DNA from: Fibrella aestuarina BUZ 2
GTDB lineage: Bacteria; Bacteroidota; Bacteroidia; Cytophagales; Spirosomataceae
Reading direction: 5' to 3'
Assembly (NCBI RefSeq): GCF_000331105.1
Contig: NC_020054.1
Coordinates: 6,079,815-6,143,814, forward strand
Length of the DNA stretch: 64,000 nt
Made by a program: the position numbers and the translations under genes. This document shows, piece after piece, positions 33,428 to 40,448 of the stretch. The number at the start of each line of letters is the position of its first letter. Position 1 is the first letter of the stretch. Under the pieces are notes generated by a model. It worked only from the letters and a program-made list of their open reading frames with translations, searched no databases and was not told the DNA's origin.

Positions 33428-34027
33428 TTAGTTTGCGTGTCGCTTCTGTAGAACGGCAATTATATCGTCGAGCGACAAATTTCGCTGTTCGAGCAACACC
33501 AGGTAGTGAAACAGCAGATCGGCCGCTTCGCCTTTGAAGAGATCGTCGTTACTGTCTTTGGCTTCGATCACCAGTTCGACCGCCTCCTCGCCCACTTTCT
33601 GGGCAATCTTGTTGACACCTTTGTTGAATAGGCTTGTCGTGTACGACCTATCGGAGGGGTTGACCTTCCGGTCGTGGATAATACCTTGTAGGTAGTTCAG
33701 AAACTGCCCGCGGCCCTGGTTCACCTCCTCGAAACACGTGTCGGCTCCGGTATGGCAGGTGGGTCCGTCGGGACTGGCCTTGATCAGCAGCGTGTCGCCG
33801 TCGCAATCGACCAGGATTTGCTTCACGTGCAGGAAATTACTGGATGTTTCGCCCTTAGTCCAGAGGCGTTGTTTGCTGCGGCTAAAAAAAGTAACGATGC
33901 CTTCGGCCTGCGTTTTTTCGAAGGCTTCCTGGTTCATGTAACCCAGCATCAGCACCTTCCCGGTCTGATCGTCCTGAATAACGGCGGGCAGCAGCCCATC
34001 GGGCGATTTGTCGAAATGAATAGTCAT
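33428..34027 (-). CDS. hisI: Bifunctional phosphoribosyl-AMP cyclohydrolase / phosphoribosyl-ATP pyrophosphatase
   Basis: Steps two and three of histidine synthesis in one 199-residue protein (HisIE). The N-terminal cyclohydrolase domain (about 10-110) contains VLMLGYMNQEAF, SRSKQRLWTKGETSSNFL, the metal-binding VDCDGDTLLI and the cysteine motif GPTCHTGADTCF. The C-terminal MazG-like pyrophosphatase domain (about 115-199) contains SLFNKGVNKIAQKVGEEAVELVIEAK and the acidic EAADLLFHYLVLL. It is the last gene of the leftward his cluster, 98 bp after hisF, with a 28-bp hairpin in that gap. Start at ATG 34027; an upstream ATG lies in the hairpin region. Confidence 0.95.
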   Translation of the reverse strand: MTIHFDKSPDGLLPAVIQDDQTGKVLMLGYMNQEAFEKTQAEGIVTFFSRSKQRLWTKGETSSNFLHVKQILVDCDGDTLLIKASPDGPTCHTGADTCFEEVNQGRGQFLNYLQGIIHDRKVNPSDRSYTTSLFNKGVNKIAQKVGEEAVELVIEAKDSNDDLFKGEAADLLFHYLVLLEQRNLSLDDIIAVLQKRHAN

Positions 34028-34048
34028 GGGTATTGGGTGGTCATTGGT

Positions 34049-34119
34049 TGTCATTTATGGTCATTCAGTAGTCATTCATAGATCAACGAGTAATGACCAC
34101 TGAATGACCATAAATGACA
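34049..34119. repeat. 28-bp hairpin between hisF and hisI, GTCATT-word family
   Basis: Arms 34049-34076 (starting TGTCATTTATGGTCATTC) and 34092-34119 pair with one mismatch over 28 bp around a 15-nt loop. The arm is built from repeats of GTCATT, and the preceding TCATTGGTTGTCAT recurs at the hemB hairpin. It lies inside the his operon, so it could reduce expression of the last gene. Confidence 0.75.
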
Positions 34120-34125
34120 GTAAAA

Positions 34126-34887
34126 TCAATTCGTTAAACGCATGGGTATGCCCTGAGCCGCCAGGTACGTCTTCAGGTCGGGAATACCAATTTCTTTGAA
34201 GTGAAAAATACTGGCCGCCAGGCCCGCATCGGCTTTGCCCGTCGTGAACACGTCGGCAAAGTGGCCCATCGTGCCTGCGCCACCCGACGCGATGACCGGG
34301 ATGTTGGCGGCACCGGATACCGCCGCCGTCAGCTCGAGGGCAAAACCAGCTTTGGTACCGTCGGTGTCCATCGACGTTAGTAAGAGTTCACCCGCCCCAC
34401 GGTCTTCAACTTCCTTCGCCCAGGCCAGCGTTCGCAGTTCAGTTGGCCGCCGACCGCCGTGCGTGTGCACGATGTGTTCGCCGTCGACGTACCGTGTATC
34501 GATCGCTACGACGATGCACTGACTCCCAAACTCAAGGGCCAGTTCATTGATCAAATCGGGTCGCCGCACGGCCGACGAGTTGATCGACACCTTATCGGCA
34601 CCAGCATTGAGCAACGCCGATACATCGGCCACCGACGAGATTCCGCCCCCAACGGTGAACGGGATGTTTACGGCATGCGCCACGCGCCGCACCAGTTCAA
34701 TCAGCGTTTTACGCTCGTCGACGGTGGCCGTGATGTCCAGAAATACCAATTCATCGGCCCCCTGTCGGGCGTAGATAGCGCCCAGTTCGACCGGGTCGCC
34801 GGCATCGCGCAGGTTCACGAAATTGGTGCCTTTCACGGTGCGCCCATCTTTAATGTCAAGACAGGGAATGATTCGTTTTGTCAGCAT
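34126..34887 (-). CDS. hisF: Imidazole glycerol phosphate synthase, cyclase subunit
   Basis: A 253-residue (beta/alpha)8 barrel that, with ammonia from HisH, makes imidazole glycerol phosphate and AICAR in histidine synthesis. Catalytic Asp11 ([16 protein letters not shown]) and the second Asp in [13 protein letters not shown] are present, with the phosphate-binding loops VGGGISS and [14 protein letters not shown]. Its start codon overlaps the stop of the GNAT gene (ATGA), showing translational coupling. It partners with HisH, encoded at the head of the same cluster. Confidence 0.97.
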
Positions 34888-35306
34888 CAGTAGGCGGTAA
34901 AAAATTTAATAGCCATCGTATTTTCCGGGTTTTCGATGGGCGTAAATCCGAATTGGCGGTAGAGCCTGTGGGCGTCCTGCGTTACCAGCATCATCCGCCG
35001 GATGCCCTGTAAGGCATCGTGGTTCATGATGGTTTGCATAAGCTGTTTGGAATAGCCTTTGCCGCGCTGTTCGGGAACAATAAATACGTCGGCCAGATAC
35101 CCAAACGTAGCGTAATCGGTAACGACGCGGGCGAAACCGACCTGCTGCCCGTCTAAATAAACGCCAAAGCAAAGGGAATGCTCAATCGACCGCTGCACCA
35201 CGTCGAGCGGAATATTCCGGCACCAATAGGCTTCCTGACGGAGAAATCGGTGGATCAACCCCACGTCGAGCCGGGTTTTGTCTGTGCTGATTTCGACGGT
35301 GTTCAT
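34887..35306 (-). CDS. GNAT-family N-acetyltransferase embedded in the his cluster
   Basis: A 139-residue acetyltransferase of the GNAT fold. The acetyl-CoA-binding segment reads [21 protein letters not shown] (Gln/Arg-x-x-Gly-x-Gly type), preceded by the beta-4 strand FGYLADV and followed by [20 protein letters not shown]. It is inserted between hisA and hisF with ATGA-type overlaps at both ends, so its translation is coupled to both. The acceptor substrate is unknown. It may act on an amine linked to histidine metabolism or may simply be a passenger fixed by operon rearrangement. Confidence 0.9.
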
Positions 35307-36034
35307 GCGTTGATTGCCGACAGCTGTTTCAAGGTCACGCGCCCTTCGTAGATCGCCTTCCCGACGATTACGCCGAACAGATTCATCTCGGCCAGCTTTT
35401 CGAGGTCGTCCATGTTACTCACACCGCCACTGGCAATAATGTTCAGCGATTGGTTGTTCTGCTGGGTACGTTCCTGCAGGTTCCGGTACAGGTCAAACGA
35501 GGGGCCCTGCAACAGCCCGTCTTTGGCCACGTCGGTGCTGATCACATGCGAAATGCCCTTCTCGACCCATTCAGCAACAAAATCATATACCCAGAGGGTG
35601 GTTGACTCTTCCCAGCCGCCAACAGCAATCTTTTCGTTTTTGGCATCGGCGCCCAGAATCACCACGTCGGCCCCATGCCGCGACAGCCACCGCTCGACCA
35701 GATCGGGCTCGCGCACGGCTACGCTACCGGCAGTAATCTGCTTCGCGCCACATTCGAGCGCAATCCGTAAGTCGTCGTCCGACTGAATGCCACCGCCGAA
35801 ATCGATGTGCAGTTTGGTTTTGGTGGCGATCAGCTCGAGCACTTTGTAGTTGATGACCCGTTTGGCTTTGGCCCCATCGAGGTCAACCAGATGCAGTCGA
35901 CTAAGACCGGCATCTTCAAACTGCATCGCCACGTCGAGCGGGCGGGCGTTGTATTCGGTCTTTTGGGCGTAGTCGCCCTGCGTCAGCCGGACGGCTTTGC
36001 CCTCAATTAAGTCAATGGCAGGAATAATATGCAT
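35303..36034 (-). CDS. hisA: ProFAR isomerase
   Basis: A 243-residue (beta/alpha)8 isomerase that converts ProFAR to PRFAR in histidine synthesis. The catalytic Asp8 (MHIIPAIDLIEGKAVRL) and the second acidic residue in ISTDVAKDGLLQGP are present. Phosphate-binding loops are DFGGGIQSDDD and ASGGVSNMDDLEKL. ATG 36034 gives the canonical N-terminus; a start six codons upstream is less likely. The 3' end overlaps the GNAT start codon (ATGA). A 114-bp gap with an imperfect inverted repeat separates it from hisH. Confidence 0.96.
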   Translation of the reverse strand: MHIIPAIDLIEGKAVRLTQGDYAQKTEYNARPLDVAMQFEDAGLSRLHLVDLDGAKAKRVINYKVLELIATKTKLHIDFGGGIQSDDDLRIALECGAKQITAGSVAVREPDLVERWLSRHGADVVILGADAKNEKIAVGGWEESTTLWVYDFVAEWVEKGISHVISTDVAKDGLLQGPSFDLYRNLQERTQQNNQSLNIIASGGVSNMDDLEKLAEMNLFGVIVGKAIYEGRVTLKQLSAINA

Positions 36035-36044
36035 AGTTACTATT

Positions 36045-36146
36045 GAACGCAAAGGCGCTACGAAAAACGCGAAGTATAGGTTATAGACGCCATACTGGTC
36101 TACACCACGTTGCGTCCTTTACGTTACCCTTAGCGTCTCTGCGTTC
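36045..36146. repeat. Imperfect inverted repeat between hisH and hisA
   Basis: GAACGCAAAGGCGCTA (36045-36060) pairs with 36131-36146 with two mismatches over 16 bp, and the flanks (ACTAT, GCG) extend the similarity. The word GAACGCARAGRCGC is a common dispersed intergenic word in Bacteroidota. It sits inside the his operon and may act on mRNA stability. Confidence 0.55.
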
Positions 36147-36148
36147 GA

Positions 36149-36733
36149 TTATAGTTTCAGGAAGTTTTCGAGAATGCGCTGTCCCACGTTGCCGCTGATT
36201 TCGGCGTGGAATTGGGCGGCGTAGAAGTTATCGCGTTGCAACATGGCGCTAAACGGTCGGCCGTAGTTACAAACGGCGGTGGTGCTGGGGCACACGTCGG
36301 CCGCATAGCTGTGCACAAAGTATACGTATGCCTCCGGCGGCAGGCCTTCCGTCAGCGGTCCCGTCAGGCTATGGATGCTATTCCAACCTGTATGCGGTAC
36401 CTTCCCCGCACTCGCCGGAAAGCGTCGGACGTCGATATCGAAAATCCCCATGCAGGTCGTGTCGTTCTCTTCAGAATGGCGGCACATCAACTGCATTCCC
36501 ACACACGTACCCAGCACGGGCTGTTTCAGGCTAGGAATAAGCAGGTCGAGTCCTCGCTCGCGCAGGTAGGCCATGGCCGTACTCGCTTCGCCCACACCGG
36601 GGAAAATCACCTTATCGGCAGCACGGATCGTGGCCTCATCGTCGGTCAGTTCGTAACTGACGCCAATTCGGTCCAGCGCATACATCACCGATTGCACATT
36701 GCCAGCGTTGTATTTAATGATAACGGTCTTCAT
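36149..36733 (-). CDS. hisH: Imidazole glycerol phosphate synthase, glutamine amidotransferase subunit
   Basis: A 194-residue class I glutaminase that feeds ammonia to HisF. The catalytic triad is present: Cys77 (PVLGTCVGMQLM), His176 and Glu178 (AAQFHAEISG, where the common Pro is Ala). The glycine loop FPGVGEASTAM and the C-terminal HPE-like segment fit the family. The frame is open far upstream, but ATG 36733 gives the standard N-terminus (MKTVIIKYNAGN). It is the first structural gene after the leader peptide and terminator, so its transcription is likely governed by attenuation. Confidence 0.96.
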   Translation of the reverse strand: MKTVIIKYNAGNVQSVMYALDRIGVSYELTDDEATIRAADKVIFPGVGEASTAMAYLRERGLDLLIPSLKQPVLGTCVGMQLMCRHSEENDTTCMGIFDIDVRRFPASAGKVPHTGWNSIHSLTGPLTEGLPPEAYVYFVHSYAADVCPSTTAVCNYGRPFSAMLQRDNFYAAQFHAEISGNVGQRILENFLKL

Positions 36734-36743
36734 GAGGGCCAAT

Positions 36744-36771
36744 AAAAAACCCGGCTCTGGGCAGAACCGGG
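36744..36771 (-). terminator. Attenuator terminator upstream of hisH
   Basis: On the minus strand CCCGGTTCT-GCCC-AGAGCCGGG forms a 9-bp stem (one G-U pair) directly followed by TTTTTT. It ends 11 nt before the hisH start codon, an unusual place for an ordinary terminator but the expected place for an attenuator. Confidence 0.9.
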
Positions 36772-36825
36772 CTACGTAGTTTCGTGAATCAGACAGGTCA
36801 GTCACAAAGCATACAGCGGTCTGCA

Positions 36826-36888
36826 TCAGCAGGCGAGCCGATGATGGACAGCATAGTGAGCGATGTGAGTTGCTGAGCAGTGATTCAT
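36826..36888 (-). CDS. Histidine-rich leader peptide (20 aa) of the his cluster
   Basis: ATG at 36888 to TGA at 36828-36826 encodes MNHCSATHIAHYAVHHRLAC. Five of 20 residues are His (3, 8, 11, 15, 16), with the last two adjacent and near the end. The peptide itself is unlikely to have a function; its translation speed is the sensor for charged tRNA-His. It lies between a promoter box and an attenuator terminator, upstream of hisH. No Shine-Dalgarno is possible if transcription starts where the -7 box predicts, so it may be translated from a leaderless or nearly leaderless mRNA. Confidence 0.82.
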   Translation of the reverse strand: MNHCSATHIAHYAVHHRLAC

Positions 36889-36892
36889 GCCG

Positions 36893-36900
36893 CAAAATTA
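36893..36900 (-). promoter_or_regulatory. Bacteroidota -7 box of the his cluster
   Basis: TAATTTTG on the minus strand is a perfect TAnnTTTG match, ending 4 bp before the leader-peptide ATG. An ATTG about 20 nt upstream (36921-36924) could serve as the -33 element. The predicted transcription start falls at or next to the leader start codon. Confidence 0.6.
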
Positions 36901-36986
36901 CAACAGCTTGCCGGGAAGTGCAATGTAACGGGCCACCTGCCGCCTTCTTTTGACGAAATGGTAGCAAGCAACCCCGTTTTGTCGCT

Positions 36987-36994
36987 TACTTTTG
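36987..36994 (+). promoter_or_regulatory. Bacteroidota -7 box for the second GMD-like gene
   Basis: TACTTTTG is a perfect TAnnTTTG match, 22 bp upstream of the start codon, and marks the left end of the capsule locus. Confidence 0.55.
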
Positions 36995-37016
36995 TGCCCA
37001 CTCGTAACTAAAGGAT

Positions 37017-37991
37017 ATGAAGACGGCGTTGATTTGTGGCATTTCGGGACAAGATGGGGCTTACTTAGCCAAATTATTGCTTGAGAAAGGCTATCAGGTT
37101 TACGGTGGGTCACGCGATGCCCAGATGTCATCCTTCCGAAACCTGGAGCGCTTGGGCATCCGAGAGGCTATTCAGGTCGTTTCGGTCAGCATCAATGACT
37201 TTCGCAGTGTGCTGCAAACGCTGCAAAAGGTACAGCCCGACGAAGTCTATAATCTGGCTGGCCAGAGTTCGGTTGGGCTGTCCTTCGAGCAGCCTGTTGA
37301 GACGTTAGAGAGTATCAGTATTGGCACGTTGAACCTGCTTGAGTCAATTCGATTCACCAACCGCCCCATCCGGTTTTACAATGCGGGTTCCAGTGAATGC
37401 TTCGGCGACACAGGTACGTTGGCGGCCGACGAACATACACCGTTCCGGCCGCGAAGTCCTTACGGCGTGGCGAAGGCGGCGGCGTTCTGGCAGGTAGCCA
37501 ACTACCGCGAAGCCTACCAACTTCACGCGAGTACCGGTATTCTGTTCAACCACGAGTCGCCTCTTCGGCCCGAGCGCTTTGTCACCCAGAAAATCGTGTC
37601 AGCCGCCTGCCGGATTGCCAATGGCAGCAACGAGAAGTTGACGCTTGGTAATGTGGATATTGCCCGCGACTGGGGCTGGGCTCCTGACTACGTGGAGGCA
37701 ATGTGGCGCATGCTGCAACAGGAGCAGGCCGACGATTTTGTTATTGCCACTGGTCAAACGCACACGCTGAAAGAATTCATCGCCGTTGTTTTCGAGCAGG
37801 TCGGCCTGAAATACGAAGAGCACGTCGTATCAGATTCGCAACTGTTCCGCCCAACTGATATTGCGGAGGGGCACGCCAACCCAGCCAAAGCAAAACAATT
37901 ACTTGGCTGGCAAGCCCGCCATTCGATGGAGACGGTGGCCAAGATGATGGTCGACGCCGCGTTGATTCGGTCTCGCCCACAACTGGCTTAA
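37017..37991 (+). CDS. GDP-mannose 4,6-dehydratase-like nucleotide-sugar dehydratase
   Basis: A 324-residue extended SDR closely related to [32 protein letters not shown] (NADP site), then LAGQSSVGLSFEQPVET, SSECFGD and SPYGVAKAAAFW (Ser and Tyr-x3-Lys), NHESPLRPERFVTQKI and RDWGWAPDYVEAM. It is about 45 residues shorter than the gmd product at 7496-8608 and lacks the [13 protein letters not shown] stretch, having SRDAQMSSFRNLERLG instead. It probably makes a 6-deoxy sugar for the capsule encoded downstream. The substrate is GDP-mannose by analogy. Confidence 0.9.
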   Translation: MKTALICGISGQDGAYLAKLLLEKGYQVYGGSRDAQMSSFRNLERLGIREAIQVVSVSINDFRSVLQTLQKVQPDEVYNLAGQSSVGLSFEQPVETLESISIGTLNLLESIRFTNRPIRFYNAGSSECFGDTGTLAADEHTPFRPRSPYGVAKAAAFWQVANYREAYQLHASTGILFNHESPLRPERFVTQKIVSAACRIANGSNEKLTLGNVDIARDWGWAPDYVEAMWRMLQQEQADDFVIATGQTHTLKEFIAVVFEQVGLKYEEHVVSDSQLFRPTDIAEGHANPAKAKQLLGWQARHSMETVAKMMVDAALIRSRPQLA

Positions 37992-38023
37992 CTAGAATGA
38001 CATAACATTTAGGCAATCCATTG

Positions 38024-38031
38024 TACCTTTG
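38024..38031 (+). promoter_or_regulatory. Bacteroidota -7 box for the polysaccharide export gene
   Basis: TACCTTTG is a perfect TAnnTTTG match, 32 bp upstream of the ATG at 38064. Confidence 0.5.
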
Positions 38032-38063
38032 CCGACTTATTGACGGCTTACGGGCCACGTTTT

Positions 38064-40448
38064 ATGACCGTAACTCACTTGCTAATTCCTTCGCTTCTTC
38101 GACAATGCTTGTCATATTGCCTGCTCGGGCTACTTTTCCTCTTTACCTCAACCGTTGACGGCCTTGCTCAGTCCCGAGTTGACCAGTTATCGGATGAGCA
38201 GGTGCAGGAATTTTATCGCCGGGCCCAGTCGAGCGGCTTAAGTGAGCTTCAGATTGAACAGGCGGCCATGTCGCAGGGCTACACACTCGATGACATCACC
38301 AAGATGCGCCGCCGCATCACAGAAATTAGAGGTAAATCGCCCCGTAGCTACCGTGGCAGCGGCGAAGCCGACACCAGCATCGTACGCACATTGCCTTCAG
38401 GATTATCACGCCGCCGCGCTGACTCGCTGGGTTTACCACGTATTGATTCAACGAGTCTGCGCAGCCGCGTTTTTGGCGCCTCTCTGTTCCAGAATGCGGG
38501 GCTTTCGTTTGAACCCGACATTCGAATCGCTACCCCGAAAAACTACATCGTTGGTCCCGATGATGAGATTCTGTTAGATATCTACGGCGCTTCGTCCGAT
38601 AATTTTCGGTTACGCGTTACGCCTGAAGGCACCGTGAAAATTCCCAACCTGGCGCCTGTCCTGGTTAGCGGACTAACGGTCGAGCAGGCTGAGCAACGTA
38701 TCATCGCCCGGCTGCGCCAAGGTGGTTTTCAAGGATTAGGTACAGCGGGTAGCGGTACGTATGCATCGGCTTCACTCGGCAAAATCCGCAGCATTCGGGT
38801 TACGCTCGTCGGCGAAGTTGTACACCCAGGTACGTATACCATTTCGTCGCTAGGCTCGGCGTTCAATGCACTGTATTTGGCTGGGGGGCCTAACCCCGAG
38901 ACGGGTTCATTTCGGCGCATCCAGGTCATTCGGGGAAACAGGATAGTACGTACTATCGACCTGTACGATTTTTTGCTGCGCGCCGATCAGCGCGATAACA
39001 TTCGGCTTCAGGATCAGGACGTCATTCGAGTAGCCGAGTACCAGACACGTGTCGATGTGCAAGGCGAGGTGCGTCGGCCTTATCTGTTTGAACTTTTACC
39101 AGGCGAAAACTTTCAAACGCTACTGGCTTTTGCTGGTGGGTTCAACGAAGAGGCTTACACCGCTTCTATATCCGTTCGCCGCAACACGCCCCGTGAACGA
39201 AAAGTGATTACGCTCACACCAGATGAGTTTACCTCGTTTATGCCCCAACGTGGTGATCGTTTCACCATTGGCCGTATTCTGAATCGGTACGAGAATCGGG
39301 TACAGATCGTTGGTGCGGTAATGCGGCCGGGCGATTACGCCCTTGAGAACGGACTGGTTACTGTTGGGGACCTCATCCGGCGAGCCGATGGTCTTCGGAA
39401 GGATGCGTCAACGACCCGGGCCAATATCTTTCGGGAAAGCGACAATATGGATGTGCAAAACATCACTTTTGACGTGAGTCGTTTGCTCAAGGGTGAGGTG
39501 GCTGATATTCCCCTTCAACGCCAGGATAGCGTGGTCATCCAGTCAATTCGTGATCTAAGAGAAGCGTATAACGTCACTATCGAAGGAGCCGTCAACAAGC
39601 CTAGTACATTCAGCTACGTAAGCAATATGACCGTGGCGGATTTGATTACTCTGGCAGGTGGTTTCCAGGAAGGAGCTACAGCGAACCGGATCGAGATCGC
39701 CCGTCGGATACGTAGCGACTCAACTAATAGCCAGACCAACACGGAGATTTACCGATTTAATATTGATCGGTCTTTGAGACTTACAGAGGAGGATGCCCGC
39801 TTTTTGCTCCAGCCGTTCGATGTCGTCTATATACGTACCCAGCCTTATTACGAAACGCAGCAACAAGTGTTCGTTAATGGAGAAGTCCTCCACCCAGGCG
39901 TATATGCTATTTTAAGTCGTACTGAACGTATTTCTGATTTGATTCAACGGGCAGGTGGCCTCAAACCGGATGCTTATCTAGCTGGCTCACAGTTTTACAG
40001 AAGCCGTAAATTGATCGGGACAGATATCCGAGCAATTCTTGATAATCCCAGCGCTGACGGAAATCTCCTCCTACAAGATCGGGATACGTTGTACATTCCC
40101 CGCCGTTCAGACCTTGTAGAGGTGCAGGGGGCGGTGTTGAATCCGTCAACCGTCAGTTATGGCCAGCGCCTGACGTTGCGTGACTATGTCACGCAAGCGG
40201 GTGGATACACGGAAAACGCCCGAGTGAGTCGGTCCTATGTTATTTATCCAAATGGACGCAAAGACCGAACAAAGCGATTTTTTGGTATTAAATCATACCC
40301 TAAAATTCAGCCGGGTTCGGTCGTGGTAATTCCGTTTAAACCACTTGACAATGATCGACTCACCCCTACTGAACGATTTGGTATTTTTTCGCTAATCGGC
40401 ACGCTAGCTGCGACGGCGACAACCATCATCATTAATCTGAGCAAGTAA
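38064..40448 (+). CDS. Wza-type polysaccharide export protein with multiple SLBB domains
   Basis: A 794-residue outer-membrane/periplasmic export protein. A signal peptide (about 1-35) precedes a Poly_export domain (about 150-220, GPDDEILLDIYGASSDNFRLRVTPEGTVKIPNL). At least four SLBB-type repeats follow, each with a GxVxxPGxY-like start and an AGG turn (for example VTLVGEVVHPGTYTIS, NGEVLHPGVYAIL, LIQRAGGLKPDAY). It ends with two short hydrophobic stretches. It would form the export channel for the capsule with the Wzz-like protein encoded 7 bp downstream. The frame opens at a TTG eight codons earlier; ATG 38064 is preferred. It is longer than E. coli Wza, as usual in Bacteroidota. Confidence 0.93.
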   Translation: MTVTHLLIPSLLRQCLSYCLLGLLFLFTSTVDGLAQSRVDQLSDEQVQEFYRRAQSSGLSELQIEQAAMSQGYTLDDITKMRRRITEIRGKSPRSYRGSGEADTSIVRTLPSGLSRRRADSLGLPRIDSTSLRSRVFGASLFQNAGLSFEPDIRIATPKNYIVGPDDEILLDIYGASSDNFRLRVTPEGTVKIPNLAPVLVSGLTVEQAEQRIIARLRQGGFQGLGTAGSGTYASASLGKIRSIRVTLVGEVVHPGTYTISSLGSAFNALYLAGGPNPETGSFRRIQVIRGNRIVRTIDLYDFLLRADQRDNIRLQDQDVIRVAEYQTRVDVQGEVRRPYLFELLPGENFQTLLAFAGGFNEEAYTASISVRRNTPRERKVITLTPDEFTSFMPQRGDRFTIGRILNRYENRVQIVGAVMRPGDYALENGLVTVGDLIRRADGLRKDASTTRANIFRESDNMDVQNITFDVSRLLKGEVADIPLQRQDSVVIQSIRDLREAYNVTIEGAVNKPSTFSYVSNMTVADLITLAGGFQEGATANRIEIARRIRSDSTNSQTNTEIYRFNIDRSLRLTEEDARFLLQPFDVVYIRTQPYYETQQQVFVNGEVLHPGVYAILSRTERISDLIQRAGGLKPDAYLAGSQFYRSRKLIGTDIRAILDNPSADGNLLLQDRDTLYIPRRSDLVEVQGAVLNPSTVSYGQRLTLRDYVTQAGGYTENARVSRSYVIYPNGRKDRTKRFFGIKSYPKIQPGSVVVIPFKPLDNDRLTPTERFGIFSLIGTLAATATTIIINLSK

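Follow-up and report, generated by a model that had tools for sequence, protein, structure and literature searches.

What does a strong intrinsic terminator do immediately before hisH in a Fibrella genome? The upstream neighbour is a gmd-like gene (start at 37017) on the opposite strand, and because it is divergent there is no upstream transcript for such a terminator to end. We analysed a 64-kb stretch of DNA (the window, meaning that whole stretch) from this genome of 6.94 Mb in two contigs; Fibrella is a genus of the family Spirosomataceae, order Cytophagales, represented here by five genomes. The phylum uses neither Shine-Dalgarno sites nor sigma-70 type promoters, and control of amino-acid synthesis is little studied there. 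In enteric bacteria, his attenuation by a ribosome on His codons has long been known, and we conclude that the hisH-hisA-GNAT-hisF-hisIE genes are very probably under ribosome-mediated transcription attenuation of this kind, reading the supply of charged tRNA-His.

The hisH locus and its leader

All five genes are on the minus strand. The first structural gene after the attenuator is hisH (36149..36733; TIGR01855, 193.5 bits, above cut-off), followed by hisA (35303..36034; TIGR00007, above cut-off), a gene for a GNAT-family acetyltransferase of unknown role (34887..35306; Pfam PF00583, 58.2 bits, with no NCBIfam model above cut-off), hisF (34126..34887; TIGR00735, above cut-off) and hisIE (33428..34054; NF002747, above cut-off). 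The gaps between hisH and hisA (114 nt) and between hisF and hisIE (71 nt) contain no TAnnTTTG box by eye, and the downstream genes are presumably co-transcribed with hisH. A tblastn search also places the GNAT gene in Fibrella rubiginis, Fibrisoma, Spirosoma telluris, Rudanella and one Cytophagales MAG; it was not found in Larkinella or in the three Dyadobacter loci checked.

An earlier note on this DNA had described a -7 box, a 20-residue leader peptide with five His, a pairing segment just past the stop codon and a strong T-tailed terminator, and direct reading of the minus strand bears out each of these parts. The -7 box TAATTTTG, of the Bacteroidota type (36893..36900), stands 4 nt (CGGC) before the leader ATG at 36888, and a directly read -33-like element, ACATTGC (36920..36926), has its TTG around -35 to -33 when 36888, the predicted start, is taken as +1. 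The leader ORF MNHCSATHIAHYAVHHRLAC (36826..36888) has 20 codons, of which codons 3, 8, 11, 15 and 16 are His, and ends in TGA (36828-36826). Its tandem His codons 15 and 16 (36841..36846) are the predicted stall site, from direct reading and from the ribosome-position model. Directly past the stop codon is the antiterminator 5' segment GCAGACCG (36817..36824), which starts at 36824 and is thereby separated by 16 nt from the end of the last His codon at 36841. A predicted antiterminator inner hairpin (36781..36808) would pair TTTGTGA (36808-36802) with TCACGAA (36787-36781), and TTTGTG/CACAA segments resembling it are present in Spirosoma rows of the alignment.

The intrinsic terminator is the stem-loop AGCCCGGTTCT-GCCC-AGAGCCGGGTT (36748..36773; -17.3 kcal/mol), with a run of six T (36744..36749) at which the terminated RNA is expected to end. 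Its 5' arm and loop CGGTTCTGC (36761..36769) are the partner of GCAGACCG in the predicted antiterminator. The terminator lies where the note had put it, but the 11 nt given to hisH has to be corrected: there are 10 nt between the T-run and the hisH ATG (36733), and 14 nt from the stem. The locus thus combines a leader ORF with codons for the operon's own amino acid and an intrinsic terminator between leader and first gene, to which computation adds an antiterminator that excludes the terminator (pairing and co-evolution) and an outcome set by ribosome position (models).

Leaders and promoters in Spirosomataceae

hisH is present in 215 of 222 Spirosomataceae genomes, and we read the upstream regions of 90 of the 215, namely the best 30 matches and 60 from further down the list, from many genera. 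An attenuator leader is found at 73 of these 90 loci. Seventy were identified as box-led ATG ORFs with at least one His, and the others are L082, in which the leader is located farther upstream of hisH than in the 70, L017, and L048 (counted through L106); in L017 and L106 a transposase-like gene separates the attenuator from hisH. Genes resembling IS200-like transposases precede hisH in L017, L106 and L024, the one in L106 matching Pfam Y1_Tnp at 21.9 bits, just under cut-off.

The 17 loci without a leader count in part against the attenuator reading: 13 have none (among them L024, with its transposase-like insertion and too little sequence to judge) and one, L008, keeps the box and terminator and has lost the leader, the remaining three (L059, L067 and L074) being contig ends with less than 150 nt upstream of hisH. 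In a further sample of 27 genomes, mostly of other genera, a leader is present at 4 of the 26 hisH loci read, L191 and three weak second matches being left out. Leaders occur in 19 of the 33 genera read, and genera without one at hisH include g2, g3, g9, g20, g22 and g29. A strict terminator rule holds for 64 of the 70 leaders, and the other six have a mismatch, a bulge or a short T-run. When the box is ignored and a short ORF with HH plus three His, or with four His, is sought within the last 260 nt before hisH, 58 of 90 loci have one; reading the reverse strand gives 3 of 90, and shuffled sequences give 30 of 900.

A conserved His frame in relatives had been set beforehand as a test of this reading, and it is present both in these counts and as invariant His codons with synonymous changes. 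In 23 Spirosoma leaders of 15 codons each, codons 11 and 12 are His in all 23, with CAT/CAC used 14/9 times at codon 11 and 21/2 times at codon 12. Other codons, such as TCT at 13 and CGG at 15, are near-fixed as DNA, so the 3' part of the Spirosoma ORF is also constrained by the RNA. Across the 70 leaders His makes up 246 of 1111 residues and HH occurs in 65; the lowest His counts, down to 2 in relatives and 1 in L045, count against the attenuator reading.

Two other arrangements were seen near hisH. In L187-L199, which comprise most loci of g4, g15, g20, g22 and g34, a shared stretch close to AAAGATTTTTTCCTGACAAATTTAGCGAACAAATA is followed by a GC hairpin and a T-run within about 400 nt upstream of hisH, with no His leader; this is maybe the end of an undescribed small RNA, and an Rfam search of the stretch in L190, L193 and L196 gave no match. 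In Cesiribacter andamanensis (L167:3531-4459) a leader with both Tyr and His codons, MTLFSAYHHHYYHLPESPGFDTSCVCAF, and a terminator precede a gene for a biopterin-dependent aromatic amino acid hydroxylase that stands immediately before hisH, and this leader is perhaps a sensor of two amino acids.

The promoter is tied to the leader by a nearly fixed distance, with exactly 4 nt between the -7 box and the ATG in 68 of the 70 leaders and 3 and 5 nt in the other two. The box-led search behind the 70 could find spacings of at most 5 nt, and the picture did not change when spacings of 2-9 nt were admitted in a search of 80 named loci; in L082 the spacing is 5 nt. Of 70 relatives, 52 have a TTG between about -38 and -30. 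In F. johnsoniae the -7 box is placed at -12 to -5, 4-5 nt from the transcription start, in the available text of PMC6847099, and this distance together with the 4-nt spacing would make the A of the leader ATG, or a base adjoining it, +1. The leader mRNA is accordingly predicted from these distances to be leaderless, starting at its AUG, a point absent from the earlier note. Few mRNAs of the phylum are leaderless, to judge from the portions available of two sources: in F. psychrophilum the share is 5.5% (PMC9723704), and in B. thetaiotaomicron about 3.7% of 5' UTRs are shorter than 10 nt (PMC7366714).

Alternative pairings and the position of the ribosome

Both helices carry marks of selection. 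In the alignment 92.8% of the cells of the terminator helix are paired, and the compensating stem changes that the earlier note proposed to look for in relatives are found, with 34 double-changed cells against 9.9 in shuffles (none of 500 reach it), while slid versions give no more than 10; two of five covariation measures are not clearly beyond shuffles (pairs with a double change, 33/500; pair types, 197/500). A single alignment of the 70 leaders for antiterminator covariation was dropped, as the post-stop segment is unalignable across genera and near-invariant within Spirosoma, and a test of cognate against non-cognate duplexes was used in its place. Among 64 leaders of 17 genera, the duplex of post-stop segment and terminator arm has -13.8 kcal/mol with the partner of its own genus and -11.0 kcal/mol with that of another. 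None of 20000 permutations was as good (p 5e-5, which is optimistic given relatedness). The genus of the window ranks only 7 of 17, and g12, g27, g32 and g35 have ranks 10-12, which counts against the co-evolution.

In the folding models the two pairings are mutually exclusive and vary with the place given to the ribosome. With a ribosome modelled at the last His codon, the nascent RNA up to the terminator loop forms GCAGACCG:CGGTTCTGC and the inner hairpin at -16.7 kcal/mol, and with a ribosome at the stop codon this fold is blocked and -7.2 kcal/mol is obtained. In the window, the value for the terminator 5' arm being paired with RNA upstream of it is 0.67 in the stalled state and 0.01 at the stop. 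It had been argued earlier that a stall at the tandem His codons leaves the antiterminator segment free and that a ribosome at the stop codon covers it, and both the 16-nt gap and these model values agree with that logic; the order and spacing of ribosome-mediated attenuation hold in the window and in relatives. When the segment from stop to terminator is shuffled the predicted switch is lost, with none of 1000 shuffles reaching the His-versus-stop difference of the window; the stalled value alone is unexceptional, as 153 of the 1000 pair the arm at least as well, and this counts against the model. Assumed footprints of 12-16 nt keep the stop value at 0.06 or below, and footprints of 10-11 nt give a less clean 0.22-0.23.

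Over 64 leaders the mean arm pairing is 0.66 (His) and 0.36 (stop), the corresponding shuffle values being 0.51 and 0.46. All but five of the leaders (59 of 64) exceed their own shuffle mean; the Wilcoxon p of 3e-11 is not a true probability since the leaders are related. Without a ribosome the antiterminator is disfavoured in the window RNA (0.11). Three observations count against the switch as modelled. Arm pairing is as high in free as in stalled RNA for several Dyadobacter-type leaders; a ribosome at the stop still leaves arm pairing at 0.64-0.69 in the Fibrella relatives L002 and L003; and the terminator is the preferred equilibrium structure in every ribosome state (P about 0.94 for the window and about 0.95 on average over 64 leaders). 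Equilibrium folding was therefore rejected as the decision rule, and because the terminator wins in all states the choice would have to be a kinetic one that falls during transcription.

In the mechanism that we propose, transcription would start on the A of the leader ATG or on a neighbouring base, and the leader would be translated. A shortage of His-tRNA would make the ribosome stall at tandem His codons 15-16, with its edge leaving GCAGACCG free to pair with the terminator 5' arm, the TTTGTGA:TCACGAA hairpin being enclosed within. Polymerase would then continue into hisH-hisA-GNAT-hisF-hisIE. When histidine is plentiful the ribosome would reach the stop codon and cover GCAGACCG, so that the terminator forms and transcription stops near 36744.

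The same His leader might instead act through Rho, through coupling or through translation of hisH, with the hairpin a fixed partial terminator. Many His-rich hisG leaders, those of families f22 and f4, are without a terminator by a simple scan, which means that such control does not always involve one. At hisH, however, the terminator and the post-stop pairing are conserved and covarying and the predicted switching depends on ribosome position, and we consider this explanation improbable. Still less likely is a functional small His-rich peptide, e.g. a metal binder, with the RNA structure secondary: HRHHHSER-type motifs do recur in many Spirosoma genomes, but leader peptides of different genera differ strongly except for His, the leaders precede his genes (trpE in the case of a Trp-rich one), and the post-stop pairing co-evolves.

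A metabolite riboswitch or a T-box would also present a structured 5' region with a terminator, but it would leave the His-codon frame unexplained, and we give it very little credence. Rfam returned no match for the region at gathering and only 10 chance-level matches at E up to 10, and none of the His_leader, T-box and riboswitch covariance models matched it at either setting.

Within the 64 kb, on both strands, the leader ORF is the only one of 408 ATG ORFs of 14-30 codons with at least four His, and region 36740-36888 folds better than 200 of 200 shuffles (z -4.1). Terminator-like matches are common, with 8 found in 34000-40000 and 6.1 expected by chance, so the match at hisH, which has the most pairs, is weak evidence by itself. 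A chance arrangement is nevertheless scarcely tenable in the face of the family-wide conservation and the ORF, shuffle, covariation and ribosome-position controls, and ribosome-mediated attenuation is the reading that we retain.

Related leaders and known attenuators

The hisG gene of the window's own genome has neither an ORF with at least two His nor a terminator in the 500 nt upstream. Among 30 Spirosomataceae genomes searched for hisG, box-led His leaders precede it in Fibrisoma, one Spirosoma and G052, none with a clear terminator. Three Runella genomes have His-rich ORFs before hisG; Runella hisH has no leader, and hisA, hisF and hisIE were not found near hisH in two Runella loci. By eye, His codons before hisG lie between two short inverted-repeat arms in the Runella loci L204-L206 and in L211 and L230, a layout unlike that of the hisH attenuator; the arms are CTACGC...GCGTAG in L204 and L205 and AACAGGC...GCCTGTTTT in L211 and L230.

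Across the phylum hisG was found in 128 of 148 genomes drawn, and 61 of the 90 upstream regions read contain a His-rich short ORF, compared with 1 of 90 when the reverse strand is read and 34 of 900 after shuffling. Since shuffled sequences give about 4%, a small number of the 61 may have arisen by chance. The ORF is present in all members read of f2 (4), f4 (5), f5 (4), f6 (2), f7 (14), f8 (2) and f22 (15), in 11 of 12 in f15, and in none of 5 in f16 and none of 4 in f27. Leaders in f22 (L255, L259, L260, L291, L292, L294 and others) start with GTG 4-5 nt past a -7-like box and have about 10 His in 25 residues.

Leaders for tryptophan were seen as well. In the window's own genome (L329:3022-3075, minus strand) the interval from a tRNA gene to trpE contains a WWW leader of the same layout, MNQINNKAWWWHFSCKG, followed by a terminator (AAAAGGCTCACCG/CGGTGAGCCTTTT), and we count this leader as support for the attenuator reading at hisH. 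In Runella G160, MILNVKNSAWWWRSSSKKMNT stands 4 nt past a -7 box. Rfam gave only sub-threshold matches to Trp_leader (RF00513) at trpE of L323 and L325, and the ilvD upstream regions of 10 genomes showed nothing convincing for branched-chain amino acids.

We would put at about even chances a joint reading in which leader-peptide sensing of histidine is the ancestral control of his genes in much of Bacteroidota, with hisG as its usual place, and in which the switch ended up on the hisH-hisA-hisF-hisIE half once the his operon had split in Spirosomataceae. It would be leaderless there, with ribosomes loading on the 5'-terminal AUG as the RNA emerges and transcription-translation coupling built into the promoter spacing; the type with many His codons and no visible terminator (f22, f4 and some Spirosomataceae hisG) may work otherwise. 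The hisH element would be a well-conserved and testable attenuator in Bacteroidota. Its fixed 4-nt spacing makes the sharp prediction that the leader mRNA begins at AUG, and in Cytophagales such leaders would allow His-tRNA charging and the coupling of transcription to translation to be followed in vivo.

We found no his attenuator reported for Spirosomataceae or at hisH, nor a test of one, in openly licensed papers. Vitreschak 2004 (FEMS Microbiol Lett 234:357) reportedly has Bacteroidetes/Chlorobi among the groups with candidate attenuators, so that paper may already predict a his attenuator for the phylum. In the text available of each, PMC2965389 (2010) has leader peptides known only in Proteobacteria and Actinobacteria, plus its own finding in Firmicutes, and PMC8305728, on his genes of the superphylum, brings in attenuation only as background on regulation and does not mention leaders. 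The closest case in the phylum is in F. psychrophilum, where the accessible portion of PMC9723704 describes strong clues that amino-acid operons are preceded by leader-peptide attenuators, together with a 5' element before hisG that is conserved in other Flavobacteriaceae as well. That element likewise belongs to a his gene, but it is at hisG and in another family, and that portion gives neither a mechanism for hisG itself nor a histidine test.

The his attenuators of Firmicutes (PMC9413887) are similar comparative predictions of a His leader and alternative hairpins before his operons; they are from another phylum, and the available text does not mention a leaderless start. Bacteroid-trp (RF01692; PMC2864571, as far as its available text goes) is, like the Fibrella element, a cis-regulatory motif of an amino-acid operon in the same phylum, but for Trp rather than His. 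Leader peptides of amino-acid operons are also described in the ilvBNC, trp, leuA and aroF attenuators of Corynebacterium glutamicum, the ilvBNC leader peptide being without a ribosome binding site according to the title of a cited paper (excerpts of PMC4046766 and PMC11857589). These attenuators differ from the Fibrella element in phylum, amino acids and sequences. All four C. glutamicum leaders are said (Neshat 2014) to be leaderless.

The enterobacterial hisL attenuator (Rfam His_leader, RF00514) has in common with the Fibrella element a His-rich leader peptide, alternative antiterminator and terminator hairpins, and their order and spacing. The Fibrella element differs in having no sequence or covariance-model match to it, in standing before hisH rather than hisG, in its Bacteroidota promoter and predicted leaderless start, and in having fewer His codons that do not form one long run. 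The mechanism is thus a known one, and what appears new from the sequence comparisons is the predicted leaderless start and hisH as the target gene.
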